A DNA stretch of 64,000 nt, taken from positions 3,658,001 to 3,722,000 of the forward strand of contig NZ_CP014546.1 of assembly GCF_001579805.1 (NCBI RefSeq). The letters are read 5' to 3'. Source of the stretch: Pseudomonas azotoformans (lineage in GTDB: Bacteria > Pseudomonadota > Gammaproteobacteria > Pseudomonadales > Pseudomonadaceae). The notes below the pieces were generated by a model, which made no database searches, had not been told where the DNA came from, and was given only the letters and a program-made list of their open reading frames with translations. The position numbers and the translations under genes were made by a program. Positions 2,459 to 24,755 of the stretch are shown one piece after another (positions within the stretch are counted from its first letter, which is position 1; every line of letters begins with the position of its first letter).

Positions 2459-4282
2459 TCAGGGTTGCCAGGTGGTTTTCTCCCCGCTGAGCTTGCGGTC
2501 CAGGAACGTCGCCGCGCTGATCAACGCCAGGTGACTCAAGGCCTGGGGCGTGTTACCCAGGTGACGGGCCTGATTGTCGAATTCTTCGGCGTACAAACCC
2601 AGGGGGTTGGCATAGCGCAGCAGTTGCTCGAATTCCAGGTGGGCCTTTTCCACTTGTCCGGCGCGGGCCAGGCATTCGACATACCAGAACGAGCAGGCCG
2701 CAAATGCGCCTTCGATGCCTTGCAGGCCGTCGATCTGGCTGTCGTCGTTGCGGTAGCGGTAGACCATGCCGTCGCGCACCAGGCTTTTCTGGATGGCTTC
2801 CAGGGTCGAGAGCCAGCGCGGGTCGGTGGCCGCGACAAACCTCACCAACGGCATCAATAGCATCGAACCGTCGAGCGCGGTGGTGCCGGTATGCTGCACG
2901 AAATGCCCGCGCTCTTCGTTCCAGAAGTTGCTCCAGATGTCGGCGTAGATCGCTTGGCGGGTCTGGTCCCAGCGTGCGAACGGCGCCGGCAGCGAACGTT
3001 TGGAAGCCAAACGGATGGCGCGATCCAGCGCTACCCAACACATCAGTCGTGAGTGCAGGAAGTGATGCTGCTCGCCGCGCATTTCCCAGATGCCCACGTC
3101 TTTGGTGTTCCAGATTTCACAGACTTGATCAGCCACCTCCACGGTGTGTTTCCAGCCTTCATGGGAGATGGCCTCGCCGTATTTGTTGACCAGGTACACC
3201 GCGTCCATCAGCTCGCCATAGATGTCCAGCTGGATCTGGTCGAAGGCTTCGTTGCCGATGCGTACCGGCTTGGCGCCGCCATGGCCGCTGAAGTGTTCCA
3301 ACTCGGCTTCCGGCAGTTCCTGACGCCCGTCGATGCCATAAAGAATATTGATCTTGGTCGGCTGGCCACAGCAGTCACTTACGCGGCCTTTGAGCCAGCG
3401 CATATAGGCGTTGGCTTCCTCGACAAACCCCAGGCGCATGAAGGCATAGACGGTGAAGGATGCGTCGCGGATCCAGGTGTAGCGGTAGTCCCAGTTGCGT
3501 TCACCGCCGGGGGTTTCCGGCAGGCCGAAGGTGGCGGCGGCGATGATCGCGCCGTGTTTGCGCGACGTCAGAAGCTTAAGCGCCAGGGCCGAGCGGTTGA
3601 CCATTTCGCGCCAGCGCCCACGGTAGTTCGATTGCGCGATCCAGCCGCGCCAGAACTTCAAGGTGTGGGCCAACGCCAGGTCCGTGCAGCTGCTGTCCAC
3701 CCGTTCATCCTCCTGGCCGCCGAGGACGAATTCGGCACCTTCTTCCTGCTCCAGGGTAAAGCTGGTCACGGCGGCACCGTCTTTGATCTGCAGTGGATGG
3801 CTACTGGACAAACGCAGGCCGGGCTGACCGTCGGCGCTGAAGCACACTGTGCCGTTGTCACGGGTGGTCTGGGTGGGCGTGCGCGCATAGTCATGGCGCA
3901 CCGCGCAGCGCAGATGGATATCGGCCTTGCCGCTGACCACCCGCACCCGGCGGATCAACAGCGGCAAGTCGTCGATCTCTTCGCTGATGGCCAACAGGTC
4001 GGTGATCTCTACCACGGCCTCGTCGCTGAGCCAGCGGGTTTGCAGCACGTTGGTGTCGGGCAGGTAGATCTGTTCGCGGCGCGCGTTGGGCAGGTCCGGG
4101 GTAAGTTGGAAAATGCCGGCGTCGGGGCTGTCCAGCAGCGAGCAGAAGATCGAGGGGCTGTCGAATTCCGGCCAGCAGAAGAAGTCGATACTGCCTTTGT
4201 CGTTCACCAATGCGGCACTGCGCATATCGCCAATGATGCCGTGGGCATCGATGGCGCTTTGTGGTTCGTTCAAATCAACCAT
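2459..4282 (-). CDS. glycoside hydrolase family 15 protein (glucoamylase/trehalase-like)
   Basis: A 607-residue protein with the two-domain GH15 layout: N-terminal beta-sandwich (GDMRSAALVNDKGSIDFFCWP) and a C-terminal (alpha/alpha)6 barrel holding the glutamate-bearing motifs GGERNWDYRYTWIRDASF and GLQGIEGAFAACSFW. Bacterial GH15 proteins of this shape hydrolyse alpha-glucans or trehalose. No signal peptide is visible, so it is probably cytoplasmic. The start is the ATG at 4282 (MVDLNEPQS); a GTG two codons upstream at 4288 lies close to the GGAG site and is an alternative. It overlaps the upstream glucose-dehydrogenase-like gene, which suggests one unit that releases and oxidises glucose, or supports trehalose/osmotic metabolism. 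Confidence 0.9.
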   Translation of the reverse strand: MVDLNEPQSAIDAHGIIGDMRSAALVNDKGSIDFFCWPEFDSPSIFCSLLDSPDAGIFQLTPDLPNARREQIYLPDTNVLQTRWLSDEAVVEITDLLAISEEIDDLPLLIRRVRVVSGKADIHLRCAVRHDYARTPTQTTRDNGTVCFSADGQPGLRLSSSHPLQIKDGAAVTSFTLEQEEGAEFVLGGQEDERVDSSCTDLALAHTLKFWRGWIAQSNYRGRWREMVNRSALALKLLTSRKHGAIIAAATFGLPETPGGERNWDYRYTWIRDASFTVYAFMRLGFVEEANAYMRWLKGRVSDCCGQPTKINILYGIDGRQELPEAELEHFSGHGGAKPVRIGNEAFDQIQLDIYGELMDAVYLVNKYGEAISHEGWKHTVEVADQVCEIWNTKDVGIWEMRGEQHHFLHSRLMCWVALDRAIRLASKRSLPAPFARWDQTRQAIYADIWSNFWNEERGHFVQHTGTTALDGSMLLMPLVRFVAATDPRWLSTLEAIQKSLVRDGMVYRYRNDDSQIDGLQGIEGAFAACSFWYVECLARAGQVEKAHLEFEQLLRYANPLGLYAEEFDNQARHLGNTPQALSHLALISAATFLDRKLSGEKTTWQP

Positions 4283-17413: not shown

Positions 17414-17442
17414 GGAACCGGTTCCCACCGTTCGGCCACACA
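17414..17442 (+). promoter_or_regulatory. hrp box (HrpL-dependent promoter) 1
   Basis: GGAACC (17414-17419), 16-bp spacer, CCACACA (17436-17442): an exact match to the GGAACC-N15/16-CCACNNA consensus for the ECF sigma factor HrpL of plant-associated Pseudomonas. It lies 75 bp before the start of the 269-residue protein. Confidence 0.82.
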
Positions 17443-17517
17443 GGATATGCCTGCCTTCGCTGGTTTCCTTGACGACTCAAGGCCAGGCACCTGAATAGAC
17501 CGAACTGGAGAACTGGA

Positions 17518-18327
17518 ATGTCGGTATCAGCATACAATCAGAGCGTTGCTCCTTCCCTCGATAACGCCTCCCTTGGAGATGCAAAACCCGCTGCCGAGCG
17601 GTCTGTCACCGGGTCAAATGTCCAGGTCACGGTAGGCGTCAATTTCACTGCGCAGTCCAATCAAGCCGGACCGATATTCGGTGGCCCGCCGCCGCGGCCG
17701 TTGCCCGGAAACCTGCGTCCGAATCCTGGCCCGCCGCCGCGTCCGACGCCGACGTTGCCGGACTCTTATTACTCGAAACAGAGCAACGAACAACTGGCGC
17801 AGGGCATCTTGAATAATTATGACGCGTTCAAGGGGCGCTGGCCCTCGCGTTACGTCACGCAACAGAGCCTGCAGCAAACAGCTAATCAACCATTGACCGA
17901 CAACCCTTACAAGGACCCGAATATTCGATTGGCGAACGAAGTGCTGAAGCGTCCAGGGTTGCTGCAATCCCTTGATCGCAATGGCAGTACCGGTGCAGTG
18001 GATGGCCGTCTGACCAAGGGCGATATCACCAGCTTCGTTCGTTCGGACAATCCGCTGAAACTGAGTGACGACAAGCAAATCGTCCAAGACGTGCTGAATA
18101 ATTTCAATGCGTTGAAGGGGGGATACTTCAGCAGCACGATAAAACTCAGGGATCTTAATGCGCGTGCGATTCAACCGTTGACCGGCAATCCGTACAACGA
18201 CCATCTCACCCAGCTTTCGCGGGAGGTCATGACGCGTTCCGATCTGAGGTCAGCGATGGACAACATTTACAGCTGGCAACGCGATGGCAAGATTTCTCGC
18301 CAGGAGTTGTACACATTGCTTGGTTAG
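17518..18327 (+). CDS. putative HrpL-regulated type III secretion substrate with tandem helical repeats
   Basis: A 269-residue protein with no signal peptide or membrane segment. Residues 1-85 are a disordered Ser/Asn/Gln/Pro-rich region, typical of type III export leaders and containing PPPRPLPGN and PPPRPTPTL. Two related repeats follow: about 88-160 (LAQGILNNYDAFKG..., QPLTDNPYKD, LANEVLKRPGLLQSLD) and about 183-260 (IVQDVLNNFNALKG..., QPLTGNPYND, LSREVMTRSDLRSAMD), each ending in an acidic DG[KR][LI] loop resembling an EF hand. An hrp box lies upstream and a GGAG site at 17507. Effector or helper (harpin/HrpK-like) is inference; I do not recognise a named family. Confidence 0.65.
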   Translation: MSVSAYNQSVAPSLDNASLGDAKPAAERSVTGSNVQVTVGVNFTAQSNQAGPIFGGPPPRPLPGNLRPNPGPPPRPTPTLPDSYYSKQSNEQLAQGILNNYDAFKGRWPSRYVTQQSLQQTANQPLTDNPYKDPNIRLANEVLKRPGLLQSLDRNGSTGAVDGRLTKGDITSFVRSDNPLKLSDDKQIVQDVLNNFNALKGGYFSSTIKLRDLNARAIQPLTGNPYNDHLTQLSREVMTRSDLRSAMDNIYSWQRDGKISRQELYTLLG

Positions 18328-18403
18328 GGCCTGGGCCCCCTGCTGCGCATGACGCGGCAGGGGAGGCAAACATTTGGCGCAGCCAGTTACACCCTAAGCA
18401 TGC

Positions 18404-18431
18404 GGAACTGTTTGCGAAGATCTACCACAAA
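18404..18431 (+). promoter_or_regulatory. hrp box (HrpL-dependent promoter) 2
   Basis: GGAACT (18404-18409), 15-bp spacer, CCACAAA (18425-18431): one transition from the strict consensus in the first half-site, and within known GGAACY variants. It lies 63 bp before the 82-residue gene. Confidence 0.72.
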
Positions 18432-18494
18432 GACAATATCCACCGGCCATTGAATGCCGATGGGGGCCTTCATCTACCGGATTAGGTCTGGACC

Positions 18495-18743
18495 ATGAAC
18501 TCGACATCATTTGATTCCCGTCACTCTCCGTATACCGCATCAACCGTGACTGCACTATCGCATGAGGCGCAAAACTCAAGAAAACCTCAAGAGCTGAACC
18601 TCACATCCTCACCCAGGTTCAGCTTCAAGGCGCCCACCGCCGAGGATTTTGACAAAGGTTCTCGTTTGTTTACGGAGCAGTCGGCGCCCAACCCTGTGTT
18701 TTCAATGTTAGCGAACCTTTGGAGTAAGGTGTCCCGGCGCTAG
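18495..18743 (+). CDS. small HrpL-regulated protein, possible type III helper/substrate
   Basis: An 82-residue protein, Ser/Thr/Asn/Gln-rich in the first 45 residues (11 Ser) and with a short amphipathic C-terminal helix (NPVFSMLANLWSKVSRR). The middle APTAEDFDKGSRLF looks like the segment of small type III structural subunits, but the match is too short to assign. Its own hrp box supports it as a real gene despite a weak ribosome-binding site. No homologue is recognised. Confidence 0.5.
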   Translation: MNSTSFDSRHSPYTASTVTALSHEAQNSRKPQELNLTSSPRFSFKAPTAEDFDKGSRLFTEQSAPNPVFSMLANLWSKVSRR

Positions 18744-18857
18744 TTTTCACCGTGTCACACAGCAGGATTTTCCAGAGCATGGATGCACGGCAGGGCAGAT
18801 GGTTACAAGCGCTTAAGATTCCGAGGGGTATATCCAGTGTTTTGGACGACCTTCTTC

Positions 18858-18885
18858 GGAACCGTTGTTTTCTCAGGACCACTCA
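18858..18885 (+). promoter_or_regulatory. hrp box (HrpL-dependent promoter) 3
   Basis: GGAACC (18858-18863), 15-bp spacer, CCACTCA (18879-18885): an exact consensus match. It lies 93 bp before the 305-residue gene. Confidence 0.82.
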
Positions 18886-18978
18886 ATCGCTGCTTGTGCC
18901 ATCTTGATTTCGAGGCCCTTTCGAGGATCAGGCAATCAAGGCCCAGGCTACGAAATCTAGATAGGGTGGAGGTGAGTC

Positions 18979-19896
18979 ATGATTGGTAGTGTCAATAATC
19001 TGAGCTATACGCAAGCAGCTGGGTCCAACACACCTGAGCCAACGGGGAGTGGTCAGTCTCGCTTTGAGGTCGATGCCCGTGCACTGGGTAGGCCGCTGCC
19101 GGCCACGCAGCCAATCAACCCCCGTTTCGCGAACGGCGCCGACCGGCACTTCGACGGCCAGAACCTGTATGGAGGCATGACGAAAGTTGGCAACCCCTTC
19201 GTCAGCTCGGACGACCATCTGCTGGCGACCGACTTGAAAAACAACCTGTCATTGCTGGACGCTTTCAAGAAGGATGGCCGACTGACCCAAGGTTCATTGC
19301 AGGAAATCGCCAAAGAAGAACCCAGCAGTAGCAAAGTATCTGAGCGCACCATCATGTTGGTGCGAGAGATACTCAACCGTCCTCGATTGAACGATGCGAT
19401 CACCGCGAGGGGTGGTGAAATCACGCATGACAGCTTGACTAAGGCTGGCGACTCGCAGATTGGCAATACCAACCCCAATACGCAGAGCGCGGACCCGTTC
19501 CATGCGAAAACCGATGCTCAGGTTGTCCAGGCGTTCAAGGGCATGTTTGATGACTGGCGGGACAAATCGGAAGACCGCACGTTCTTTTTCGGTACACAAA
19601 GACATCGGTACGTGAATAAAGACACGATTATTGAAATCGCCAAGGACCCCAATCAAATAGGCAACAACGGTGAACCTCTGCGGGATGTGCGCACCGGGTT
19701 TCCTTTGAAAAAGTACAGCGAGCAACAGGTGTACCTGGCCAAGAACCTGATGGAGAGGCCGGGTTTGATGGCCTCTCTGGACAGTTACAAAGCCAATGGT
19801 TACAGCCCTTTCGGAAGCCTGAATGACGATGGCTGGCTGAAGAACTACAGCATTGATCGCTGGCTTGAAAACGACAAAGAAGAGAAGGGGAAGTAG
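18979..19896 (+). CDS. putative HrpL-regulated type III secretion substrate, repeat family
   Basis: A 305-residue soluble protein without a Sec signal. The first 75 residues are low-complexity (Ser, Asn, Gln, Pro, Gly). Two copies of a helical module follow, at about 77-155 (DDHLLATDLKNNLSLLDAF, VREILNRPRLNDAIT, GGEITHDSL) and about 178-300 (DAQVVQAFKGMFDDW, LAKNLMERPGLMASLD, DGWLKNYSIDRWL). The pattern is that of the 269-residue neighbour, so the two are paralogues. The second repeat carries an insertion of about 30 residues. It has its own hrp box. Function is not recognised; translocated effector or apoplastic helper is inferred from regulation only. Confidence 0.65.
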   Translation: MIGSVNNLSYTQAAGSNTPEPTGSGQSRFEVDARALGRPLPATQPINPRFANGADRHFDGQNLYGGMTKVGNPFVSSDDHLLATDLKNNLSLLDAFKKDGRLTQGSLQEIAKEEPSSSKVSERTIMLVREILNRPRLNDAITARGGEITHDSLTKAGDSQIGNTNPNTQSADPFHAKTDAQVVQAFKGMFDDWRDKSEDRTFFFGTQRHRYVNKDTIIEIAKDPNQIGNNGEPLRDVRTGFPLKKYSEQQVYLAKNLMERPGLMASLDSYKANGYSPFGSLNDDGWLKNYSIDRWLENDKEEKGK

Positions 19897-22736: not shown

Positions 22737-24755
22737 ATGGTTAACGCGTTTGTTTCGTCACGTTTCAATTTGGTTCTTCCACATATAAACACTGCCTTGC
22801 AAGTCCTGGCATTCAAAGGTAATGAAGTCCTCGATCAACCCTTTTTCATCCATATACAGGTGGTCAGCGAAAACCCTTCCCTTGATCTGGAGGCGCTACT
22901 CCACCAGCCCGCCTACCTGGATCTTGGTGAAGCGAACGAAGGCTTGCATGGGCAGGTTTACGCTATCGGGCGGGACGACCCAGGTCGGCGCATCACGCGT
23001 TATCACCTGACCCTGGCGCCCCGGCTGGCCTGTCTTGCACATCGGCATGACCAGAGGATTTTCCAGCAACGCAGTGTGCCGCAGATCATTGCGCAGGTCC
23101 TTGAGCAGCATGGCATCCTGGCGGATGCCTACGTGTTTGAACTTGGCCCGGTGGTTTATCCGGCGCGTACGTTCTGCGTGCAGTACGCAGAAAGCGACCT
23201 GCACTTCATCCAGCGGCTCTGTGAAGAGGAGGGCATTCACTACCATTTTCGTCACAGCCTAGACAATCATCTGCTGGTATTTGGTGATGACCAGACGGTG
23301 TTTGGGCGTTTACCCGGGCAACGCTATAGCGCTCCCGGCGGACCCCAAGTCGAGACAAGGGTTATCCAGCGATTCAACGTGCGCTTGGCCACCCGCAGCC
23401 AAAAGACGGTGCGCCGTGATTACGACTTCGAACATCCTTCCTTGCACCTGCACGACAGCGCGGGTGTCGCGTCGACACTCCCGCTTGAGGACTATCAGTA
23501 CCCGGCAGGATTCACCGGTCATGCCCGTGGCAAGCAATTGGCGCGGCGGGGCCTGGAGCGTCACCAGCGCGACCGGCATCGGGCATTGGGCAAGAGTGAT
23601 CAGCCAGTGCTGCGCAGTGGGCACTTCCTTGAGATACGAGATCATCCCGATCCAACCTGCAACGACCTGTGGCTGATCACGTCGGTGCGTCATGAGGGTT
23701 ATCAACCCCAGGTGCTGGAGGAAGCAACACCGGCAACCGACGCGTTCCACGGATATCGCAATCGCTTTACCGCAACACCTTGGCAGGCCGTGCATCGGCC
23801 GTCTCTCAGGCATCCCAAGCCGACCATCAATGGCAGCCAGACTGCAACCGTGACCGGTCCGGCCGGTGAGGACGTGCATTGCGACGCTTATGGCCGGGTG
23901 AAGGTGCGCTTTCACTGGGACCGCCGGGACAAGGCGGATGATAAAAGCAGTTGCTGGGTGCGGGTGGCGTCCGGGTGGGCCGGTGACGGGTTTGGCGCAA
24001 CGATGATCCCGCGTGTGGGCATGGAGGTGTTGGTGACCTTCCTGGACGGGGATCCCGACCGCCCGTTGATCAACGGCTGCCTGCCGAATGCGTTGCACCG
24101 GCCGTCCTATCCCTTGCCGCAATACAATACCCGTAGCGTTTTGCGCAGCCGCAGTTCCCTTGGGGGGGAAGGCGCCAACGAGGTGTACCTGGAAGACCGC
24201 CGTGGCGAGGAGCTTGTCTACCTGCGTGCACAGCGAGACCTGGAGCAAAGGGTCGGCCATGACAGTCGGCTGGAGGTTGTGGGGGAGCGGCGAGAAGTCA
24301 TCCATGGCTTGAGCACGGCTCACTTGGAAAGCGAAGAGCATCGCCACGTCACCGGCGACCGCAAAGTGGTGCTCAAGGCCAACGACTACCTTGATGTACA
24401 AGGCGATAGTCGGACCCAGGTGGCGCAGACCCTGGTCATCGAGGCTGGGCAGCAACTTCACCTCAAGTCCGGTGCCAGCCTGGTGATCGATGCCGGTGCG
24501 CAACTGAGCCTCAAGGCAGGTGGAGAGCATCTGGTCATCCAGGCCGGTGGCATTTTCAGCAGTCGTCCAATAGCCCTTGGCGGTTTACCGTCTGCGACCC
24601 CGTTGGCGAGCGCCTTGAGAATGGCCGGTGCGCCAGAGGTCTCCAAGGTACAAGGCTCGACCATGAACCTGGCCCGACAACTGGGGGCGGACTACTGCCC
24701 AGTGTGCGAACGCTGCCGTGAAGGCCTCTGTGATCTGCCGGGGAGGGCTGCCTGA
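22737..24755 (+). CDS. vgrG: type VI secretion tip protein VgrG/TssI
   Basis: A 672-residue VgrG. The gp27-like part covers residues 1-380 (LFHQPAYLDL-type start, HGQVYAIGRDDPGRRITRYHLTLAPRL, QYAESDLHFIQRLCEEEGIHYHF); the OB-fold/gp5 part is at about 385-460 (GRVKVRFHWDRRDKADDKSSCWVRVASGWAG, GMEVLVTFLDGDPDRPLINGCL); then the beta-helical needle to about 610. A C-terminal tail of about 60 residues ends in a CPVCERCREGLC cluster. VgrG caps the Hcp tube and carries effectors. It is coupled (TGATG) to the adaptor gene. The genes 22737-28525 form one tip-adaptor-immunity-effector module; the T6SS core machinery is elsewhere. Confidence 0.95.
   Translation: MVNAFVSSRFNLVLPHINTALQVLAFKGNEVLDQPFFIHIQVVSENPSLDLEALLHQPAYLDLGEANEGLHGQVYAIGRDDPGRRITRYHLTLAPRLACLAHRHDQRIFQQRSVPQIIAQVLEQHGILADAYVFELGPVVYPARTFCVQYAESDLHFIQRLCEEEGIHYHFRHSLDNHLLVFGDDQTVFGRLPGQRYSAPGGPQVETRVIQRFNVRLATRSQKTVRRDYDFEHPSLHLHDSAGVASTLPLEDYQYPAGFTGHARGKQLARRGLERHQRDRHRALGKSDQPVLRSGHFLEIRDHPDPTCNDLWLITSVRHEGYQPQVLEEATPATDAFHGYRNRFTATPWQAVHRPSLRHPKPTINGSQTATVTGPAGEDVHCDAYGRVKVRFHWDRRDKADDKSSCWVRVASGWAGDGFGATMIPRVGMEVLVTFLDGDPDRPLINGCLPNALHRPSYPLPQYNTRSVLRSRSSLGGEGANEVYLEDRRGEELVYLRAQRDLEQRVGHDSRLEVVGERREVIHGLSTAHLESEEHRHVTGDRKVVLKANDYLDVQGDSRTQVAQTLVIEAGQQLHLKSGASLVIDAGAQLSLKAGGEHLVIQAGGIFSSRPIALGGLPSATPLASALRMAGAPEVSKVQGSTMNLARQLGADYCPVCERCREGLCDLPGRAA

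Follow-up and report, generated by a model that had tools for sequence, protein, structure and literature searches.

A conserved islet of three hrp-boxed genes in a fluorescens-group Pseudomonas that likely belongs to the RspL type III regulon

Introduction

Three neighboring genes in a fluorescens-group Pseudomonas genome, each preceded by its own exact hrp box (Table 1), are probably transcribed by the sigma factor RspL and their products exported by the Rsp type III secretion system, with two of these products, P1 and P3, acting outside the bacterium as EF-hand-like proteins. Type III systems are widespread in plant-associated, nonpathogenic Pseudomonas, but little is known of what they secrete or of the parts that deliver it. 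A conserved hrp-boxed trio, with two members that are relatives of one another and show a weak relationship to known translocators, supplies a set of defined genes for study. In favor of our explanation we count a boxed relative of P1 at 4.09 Mb, an AvrE-family gene, the relatedness of P1 and P3, and the disordered leaders; against it stand a box motif at genome background, a co-occurrence with rspL that is confounded by clade and has exceptions in both directions, an aliphatic-residue rule that P2 and P3 fail, and weak fold matches. The window, by which we mean the whole 64-kb stretch of DNA analyzed, is part of a single 6.86-Mb contig.

Table 1. Promoter boxes and genes of the islet, in window positions
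Feature	Position	Strand	Description
hrp box 1	17414..17442	+	spacer 16; ends 75 bp before P1 start codon
P1, 269 aa	17518..18327	+	disordered proline-rich leader 1-80, then four EF-hand-like modules 80-269 (predicted)
hrp box 2	18404..18431	+	spacer 15, GGAACT; ends 63 bp before P2 start codon
P2, 82 aa	18495..18743	+	small serine-rich protein, kept motif F-K/Q-AP-x-A-x-DF
hrp box 3	18858..18885	+	spacer 15; ends 93 bp before P3 start codon
P3, 305 aa	18979..19896	+	distant P1 relative, same order of four modules

Clustered hrp boxes

The window contains three exact matches to GGAACY-N15/16-CCACNNA, all on the plus strand and at the positions that the initial annotation had listed, and their measured distances to the start codons fall within the 60-95 bp that it gave. 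Only 0.11 such matches are expected in the window, and none of 100 shuffles reached three. Across the genome, the exact pattern occurs 28 times (18 GGAACC and 10 GGAACT) vs 38 times for the reversed pattern, that is, without enrichment; the evidence therefore resides in the clustering, position, and conservation of the boxes. When 16 plus-strand and 12 minus-strand sites were scattered at random over the genome, 2 of 20,000 trials placed three of them on one strand within 1,450 bp, in keeping with the earlier judgment that three oriented matches are unlikely to arise by chance. Dismissing the three boxes as coincidence, a reading to which the unenriched genome-wide count lends itself, is scarcely credible in view of this clustering and of the exact box found upstream of P3 in every one of the 33 islets compared below. 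A box at promoter distance, the mark of an HrpL (RspL) regulon gene, precedes all three islet genes, and we regard the islet as a likely part of that regulon.

Elsewhere in the genome, two further genes with a box encode relatives of P1. One product, of 361 aa (G000:C1:4092795-4093877), matches the P1 profile with a probability of 98.9% (E 1.7e-17); an exact hrp box lies 70 bp ahead of its gene. A 135-aa P1-like protein (E 5.6e-14; L113 12418-12882, genome coordinates 5657418-5657882) is encoded in or beside a second type III cluster; an exact GGAACT box lies 31 bp upstream of its gene and could be there by chance.

The genome has further boxed genes. At locus L014 (4865-5448; genome positions 2892864 and 2893420), two exact boxes lie 556 bp apart, the first of them 60 bp before a gene for a 113-aa glycine- and glutamine-rich, harpin-like protein; the second was assigned no clear gene. 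Exact boxes also precede genes for proteins of 460, 137, 128, 154, and 350 aa (L015, L019, L020, L023, and L149, respectively), for which no Pfam family reached E 1. These five are possible further regulon members, some of which may be chance matches at background density. Within the window, about 2.8 kb after the islet, a 672-aa open reading frame (22737-24755) reads by eye like a type VI VgrG.

Sigma factor and Rsp apparatus

An ECF sigma factor gene with Sigma70_r2 and r4 domains is located at 2.35 Mb, adjoining rspJ- and sctV-type apparatus genes, and this Rsp cluster is 1.3 Mb from the islet. None of the listed matches to the sigma factor bears the source name HrpL, their names reading RNA polymerase sigma factor or similar; the label RspL/HrpL is ours, on the basis of the gene layout and of the available portions of papers on SBW25 and the WCS strains. 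In the scanned part of the Rsp cluster, which comprises a subset of its genes, NCBIfam models for SctV, SctR, SctS, SctT, SctC, and SctJ score above cut-off, SctN is seen via the FliI/YscN subfamily with the SctN model itself just below cut-off, and only the TyeA portion of SctW is recognized. Exact hrp boxes also mark this region: one stands before a short pilin-like gene, and another before the rspJ (sctW)-like gene, provided that translation of the latter begins at the in-frame ATG that follows the box. The surroundings of the sigma factor gene also include a sigma-54 activator gene and an AvrE-family effector gene (PF11725, E 1.2e-159; L012 1563-5873, genome coordinates 2341563-2345873); an AvrE-family gene product, RopE, is described at such a place in SBW25 and WCS417 in the portions of the literature available. 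The second type III cluster, which includes an FHIPEP gene, is located near 5.66 Mb.

The initial annotation, made from the window, had called for a search of the genome for hrpL and a type III system, whose joint absence would speak against it. An HrpL/RspL-like sigma factor beside Rsp-type apparatus genes was found, and this genome-level objection therefore does not apply. Of its description of the islet as encoding HrpL-controlled type III substrates, what stands is the genomic part, namely, the sigma factor, the boxed apparatus genes, and the kept islet boxes; HrpL control of the promoters and export of the products are predictions, if likely ones. Its assignment to the fluorescens group accords with the nearest named carriers of P3, P. 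canadensis and P. simiae, at 90% (P3 only).

Conservation of the islet

Among 199 Pseudomonas genomes, relatives of P3 occur in 33, our own genome included. On the gene strand, the 33 islet stretches (266,533 bp) hold 88 exact matches to the box; the opposite strand has none, and the reversed pattern, counted on either strand, matches once in the same length. Two of the 88 boxes (in G121 and G040) fall outside the islet, close to where the next gene begins. P1 is present at 30 of the 33 islets (missing in G171, G176, and G197), in all 30 of which the first box upstream of it is exact. Eight further loci, drawn from 29 other P3 carriers, add 19 gene-strand boxes and, again, none on the opposite strand. 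The box cores are invariant in this comparison because exact matches were sought. Around them, the commonest base per column of spacer and flank averages only 0.46-0.64 (measured on the first box in 32 genomes and on the P3 box in 33), such that the boxes are kept while their surroundings vary.

The neighborhood is kept as well. In all 33 genomes, the islet is followed by a gene that was named by eye as an MFS-like transporter, and a TonB receptor gene was seen before the islet in 26 of 33, a count that may be lowered by stretches ending short. The kept boxes and shared neighbors indicate that the locus is old and fixed and was not inserted recently. A search for P3 in a plasmid collection did not find it. 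Judged by these sequence comparisons, the islet is real and old.

The three genes vary in different ways. By a text rule, a P2-like gene with its box is present in 23 of 33 islets, two of which (G090 and G099) have one box mismatch; two further cases (G171 and G197) were spotted by eye, and in G136 and G031 the P2-like gene and its box are located after P3. In 17 of the 33 genomes a single reading frame encodes P3, and in the other 16 it is divided over two, as sorted by eye. In the two-frame form, a possible second start overlaps the first stop by 11 bases (eight genomes), 4 bases (two), or 13 bases (two), or else follows after a one-base gap (the remaining four). This layout suggests translational coupling of two products, which are fused in the lineage of the window. 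We also considered the split form as a decayed gene; the recurrence of the overlapping or abutting layout speaks for a genuine two-gene form. A possible rearrangement is seen in G176 (L107, ~3516-3911), which lacks P1: there, a box and leader of the P1 type continue straight into the first P3 frame, as though a deletion had fused the two.

The distribution of P3 parallels that of rspL. Close rspL genes (at least 72% identity) occur in 34 of the 199 genomes. In a larger draw of 398 genomes (P3 at E<=1e-10, rspL at E<=1e-60), P3 is present in 62, close rspL in 67, and both in 61. The P3 carriers form one clade by identity of at least 83% in a dxr-like gene (named by eye), with 64 members: 63 assigned by this gene, and G206, a carrier of both P3 and rspL for which no dxr-like match is listed. 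Sixty-one members have both genes, G234 has P3 only, and G304 and G310 have rspL only; none lacks both, and there is therefore no co-loss signal. Outside the clade, four genomes (G198, G244, G256, and G343) carry rspL, at 68-72% identity, and lack P3. We set aside this co-occurrence as functional proof, since carriers that make up a single clade may share it by ancestry. In two genomes, G358 and G373, a single in-frame stop codon interrupts the rspL match, and two islet boxes remain in each.

G234 has P3 with three intact boxes but no close rspL, and its one FHIPEP gene presumably belongs to the flagellum; from this gene content, it seems to have lost its Rsp system. An islet kept in a genome without rspL is what one might see if the three genes were HrpL-controlled and their products were never exported, as with the non-effector members of the P. 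syringae HrpL regulon reported in the available part of one study (PMC3879358). We consider this improbable for the present islet, whose products have serine-rich, disordered N-termini and a relation to translocator-type proteins, and we adopt export through the Rsp system as the best, and a likely, reading of the islet products.

Predicted architecture of the encoded proteins

P1 and P3 are related to each other (probability 98.2%) and are predicted to share an architecture, a disordered leader followed by four helix-loop-strand-helix modules. Structure prediction gives pLDDT <50 at residues 1-58 and 63-67 of P1 and at 1-23, 41-55, and 58-64 of P3, which bears out for these two proteins the description "leader-disordered". 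All three products also appear soluble, as had been claimed, with highest 19-residue Kyte-Doolittle means of 0.38 (P1), 0.33 (P2), and 0.25 (P3); P1 and P3 have no membrane segment. The N-terminus of P1 fits the pattern of type III secreted effectors, which is serine-rich, with few acidic residues in the first 12, and aliphatic at position 3 or 4; P2 and P3 have no aliphatic residue at either position.

Family-profile scans assigned no family to P2 and found no enzyme signature in P1 or P3, the NCBIfam scan of all three proteins returned no family at E<=1, and the P1 profile had no match at E<=1 among sequences of solved structures. P1 itself scores below the curated cut-offs of PF16937 (13.5 vs 30.9 bits), PF05819 (13.1 vs 26.1), and EF-hand_7 (16.4 vs 30). 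Weak matches over ~65 residues to the HrpK1 and NolX profiles occur at E<=0.01 in five and two of 20 P1 homologues, respectively, and EF-hand_6 matches at the same threshold in four of 20; precomputed PF16937 assignments appear on 10 of 71 homologues, among the matches listed. For P3, neither the protein nor any of 22 homologues matches the HrpK1/NolX profiles, and its fold matches are very weak, none of them clear. Most of 50 Foldseek rows for P1, among the matches listed, are named as EF-hand-type calcium-binding proteins, with weak scores; for some of the match names, membership in this class is our assumption.

A canonical EF-hand calcium loop has 12 residues, and the putative P1 loops D153-D169 and D248-E263 have 17 and 16. 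Among the sequences compared, D248 is kept in 45 of 45 sequences and D256 in 44 of 45, with glutamate at the E263 position in 25 of 45. P1 is predicted to resemble EF-hand proteins and, weakly, the HrpK1/NolX translocators. HrpK1, HrpF, and NolX translocators possess a hydrophobic, membrane-inserting region, for which the maximal hydropathy of P1 leaves no place; given the missing membrane segment and the scores below cut-off, we do not count P1 and P3 as members of the translocator families. The sole gene of the genome above the PF16937 cut-off encodes a 1107-aa protein (at 638224), has no exact hrp box near it, and aligns with P1 over 38 columns only (probability 19.6%) and unconvincingly with P3.

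A proposed path from promoter to host

In the course of events that we envisage, host contact would raise RspL, which would fire the three separate islet promoters together; the disordered leaders would feed the products into the secretion channel, and the modules of P1 and P3 would fold outside the cell, perhaps aided by calcium. Once exported, the proteins would either assist delivery from outside the host cell or enter it and act as effectors.

It is possible, and we put it forward tentatively, that P1 and P3 are effectors whose target, after injection, lies within the host cell, for instance in calcium-dependent signaling, in which case their likeness to HrpK1 and NolX would reflect a shared module only. 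Soluble proteins free of hydrophobic segments, built of a predicted disordered leader and a compact domain, suit this role, some homologues bear source names as type III secretion or effector proteins, and a gene with a similar box in strain WH6 is a listed candidate effector in the part of the report available. The want of an enzyme signature argues the other way, as does the maintenance of P3 at a fixed site in 62 of 64 clade genomes, which would be more typical of machinery. Core effectors such as AvrE exist too.

Alternatively, P1 and P3 would be secreted helpers that stay outside the host cell and replace the translocators reported missing from Rsp clusters, which we consider somewhat unlikely. 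Besides the HrpK1/NolX and PF16937 matches of P1 homologues, this idea draws on the Rsp clusters of WCS417, WCS374, and ORh26, described as free of translocator genes in the available text, and on HrpF, whose imperfect repeats of ~110 aa are reported in the accessible part of one study (PMC5483457). It has to contend with the low PF16937 score of P1, the silence of all P3 homologues in the same comparison, the lack of membrane segments, and the two clade members, G304 and G310, that carry rspL and apparatus genes (three FHIPEP genes each) without P3. A more specific version, that P1, P3, and the relative at 4.09 Mb are stand-alone HrpF/NolX/HrpK1 repeat modules, calcium-responsive and soluble, that form the missing Rsp delivery tip, is a long shot. 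If true, modules that fold outside the cell would serve a syringe reported to lack any translocator.

Relationship to known systems

Searches within the papers available turned up none on HrpK and EF-hands in Pseudomonas fluorescens and none that joins NolX to calcium binding and type III secretion. Hypothetical-protein genes with Hrp boxes are reported in several related strains, according to the parts of the sources available: 14-15 each in A506, SS101, and BG33R (PMC3390384), 15 in WCS374, and 11 in WCS417 (PMC6647874; see also PMC4509608). In WH6, the box AGGAACCGATTCCGACAGATGGGCCAC lies 77 bp before PFWH6_1942, a published candidate effector, as given in the available portion of that report (PMC2997014). 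Because this box resembles those found before P1 in relatives, such as GGAACCGATTCCGACACAAACGCCACACA in G165, the family of P1 is probably already on a candidate-effector list. Like such orphan candidates, the islet genes are hypothetical genes with a Hrp box closely upstream, away from the type III cluster; unlike them, they comprise three boxed genes in one conserved islet, with P1 and P3 interrelated and a related boxed, P1-like gene elsewhere.

With the HrpK1/HrpF/NolX proteins (PF16937 and PF05819), P1 and some homologues share the weak profile matches of ~65 residues, whereas P1 falls below the curated cut-offs, has no hydrophobic membrane segment, and is much shorter. With calmodulin, troponin C, and centrin, it may share helix-loop-helix modules arranged in pairs, a predicted likeness with weak fold scores, and it differs from them in the length of its putative loops, which exceed the canonical 12 residues.
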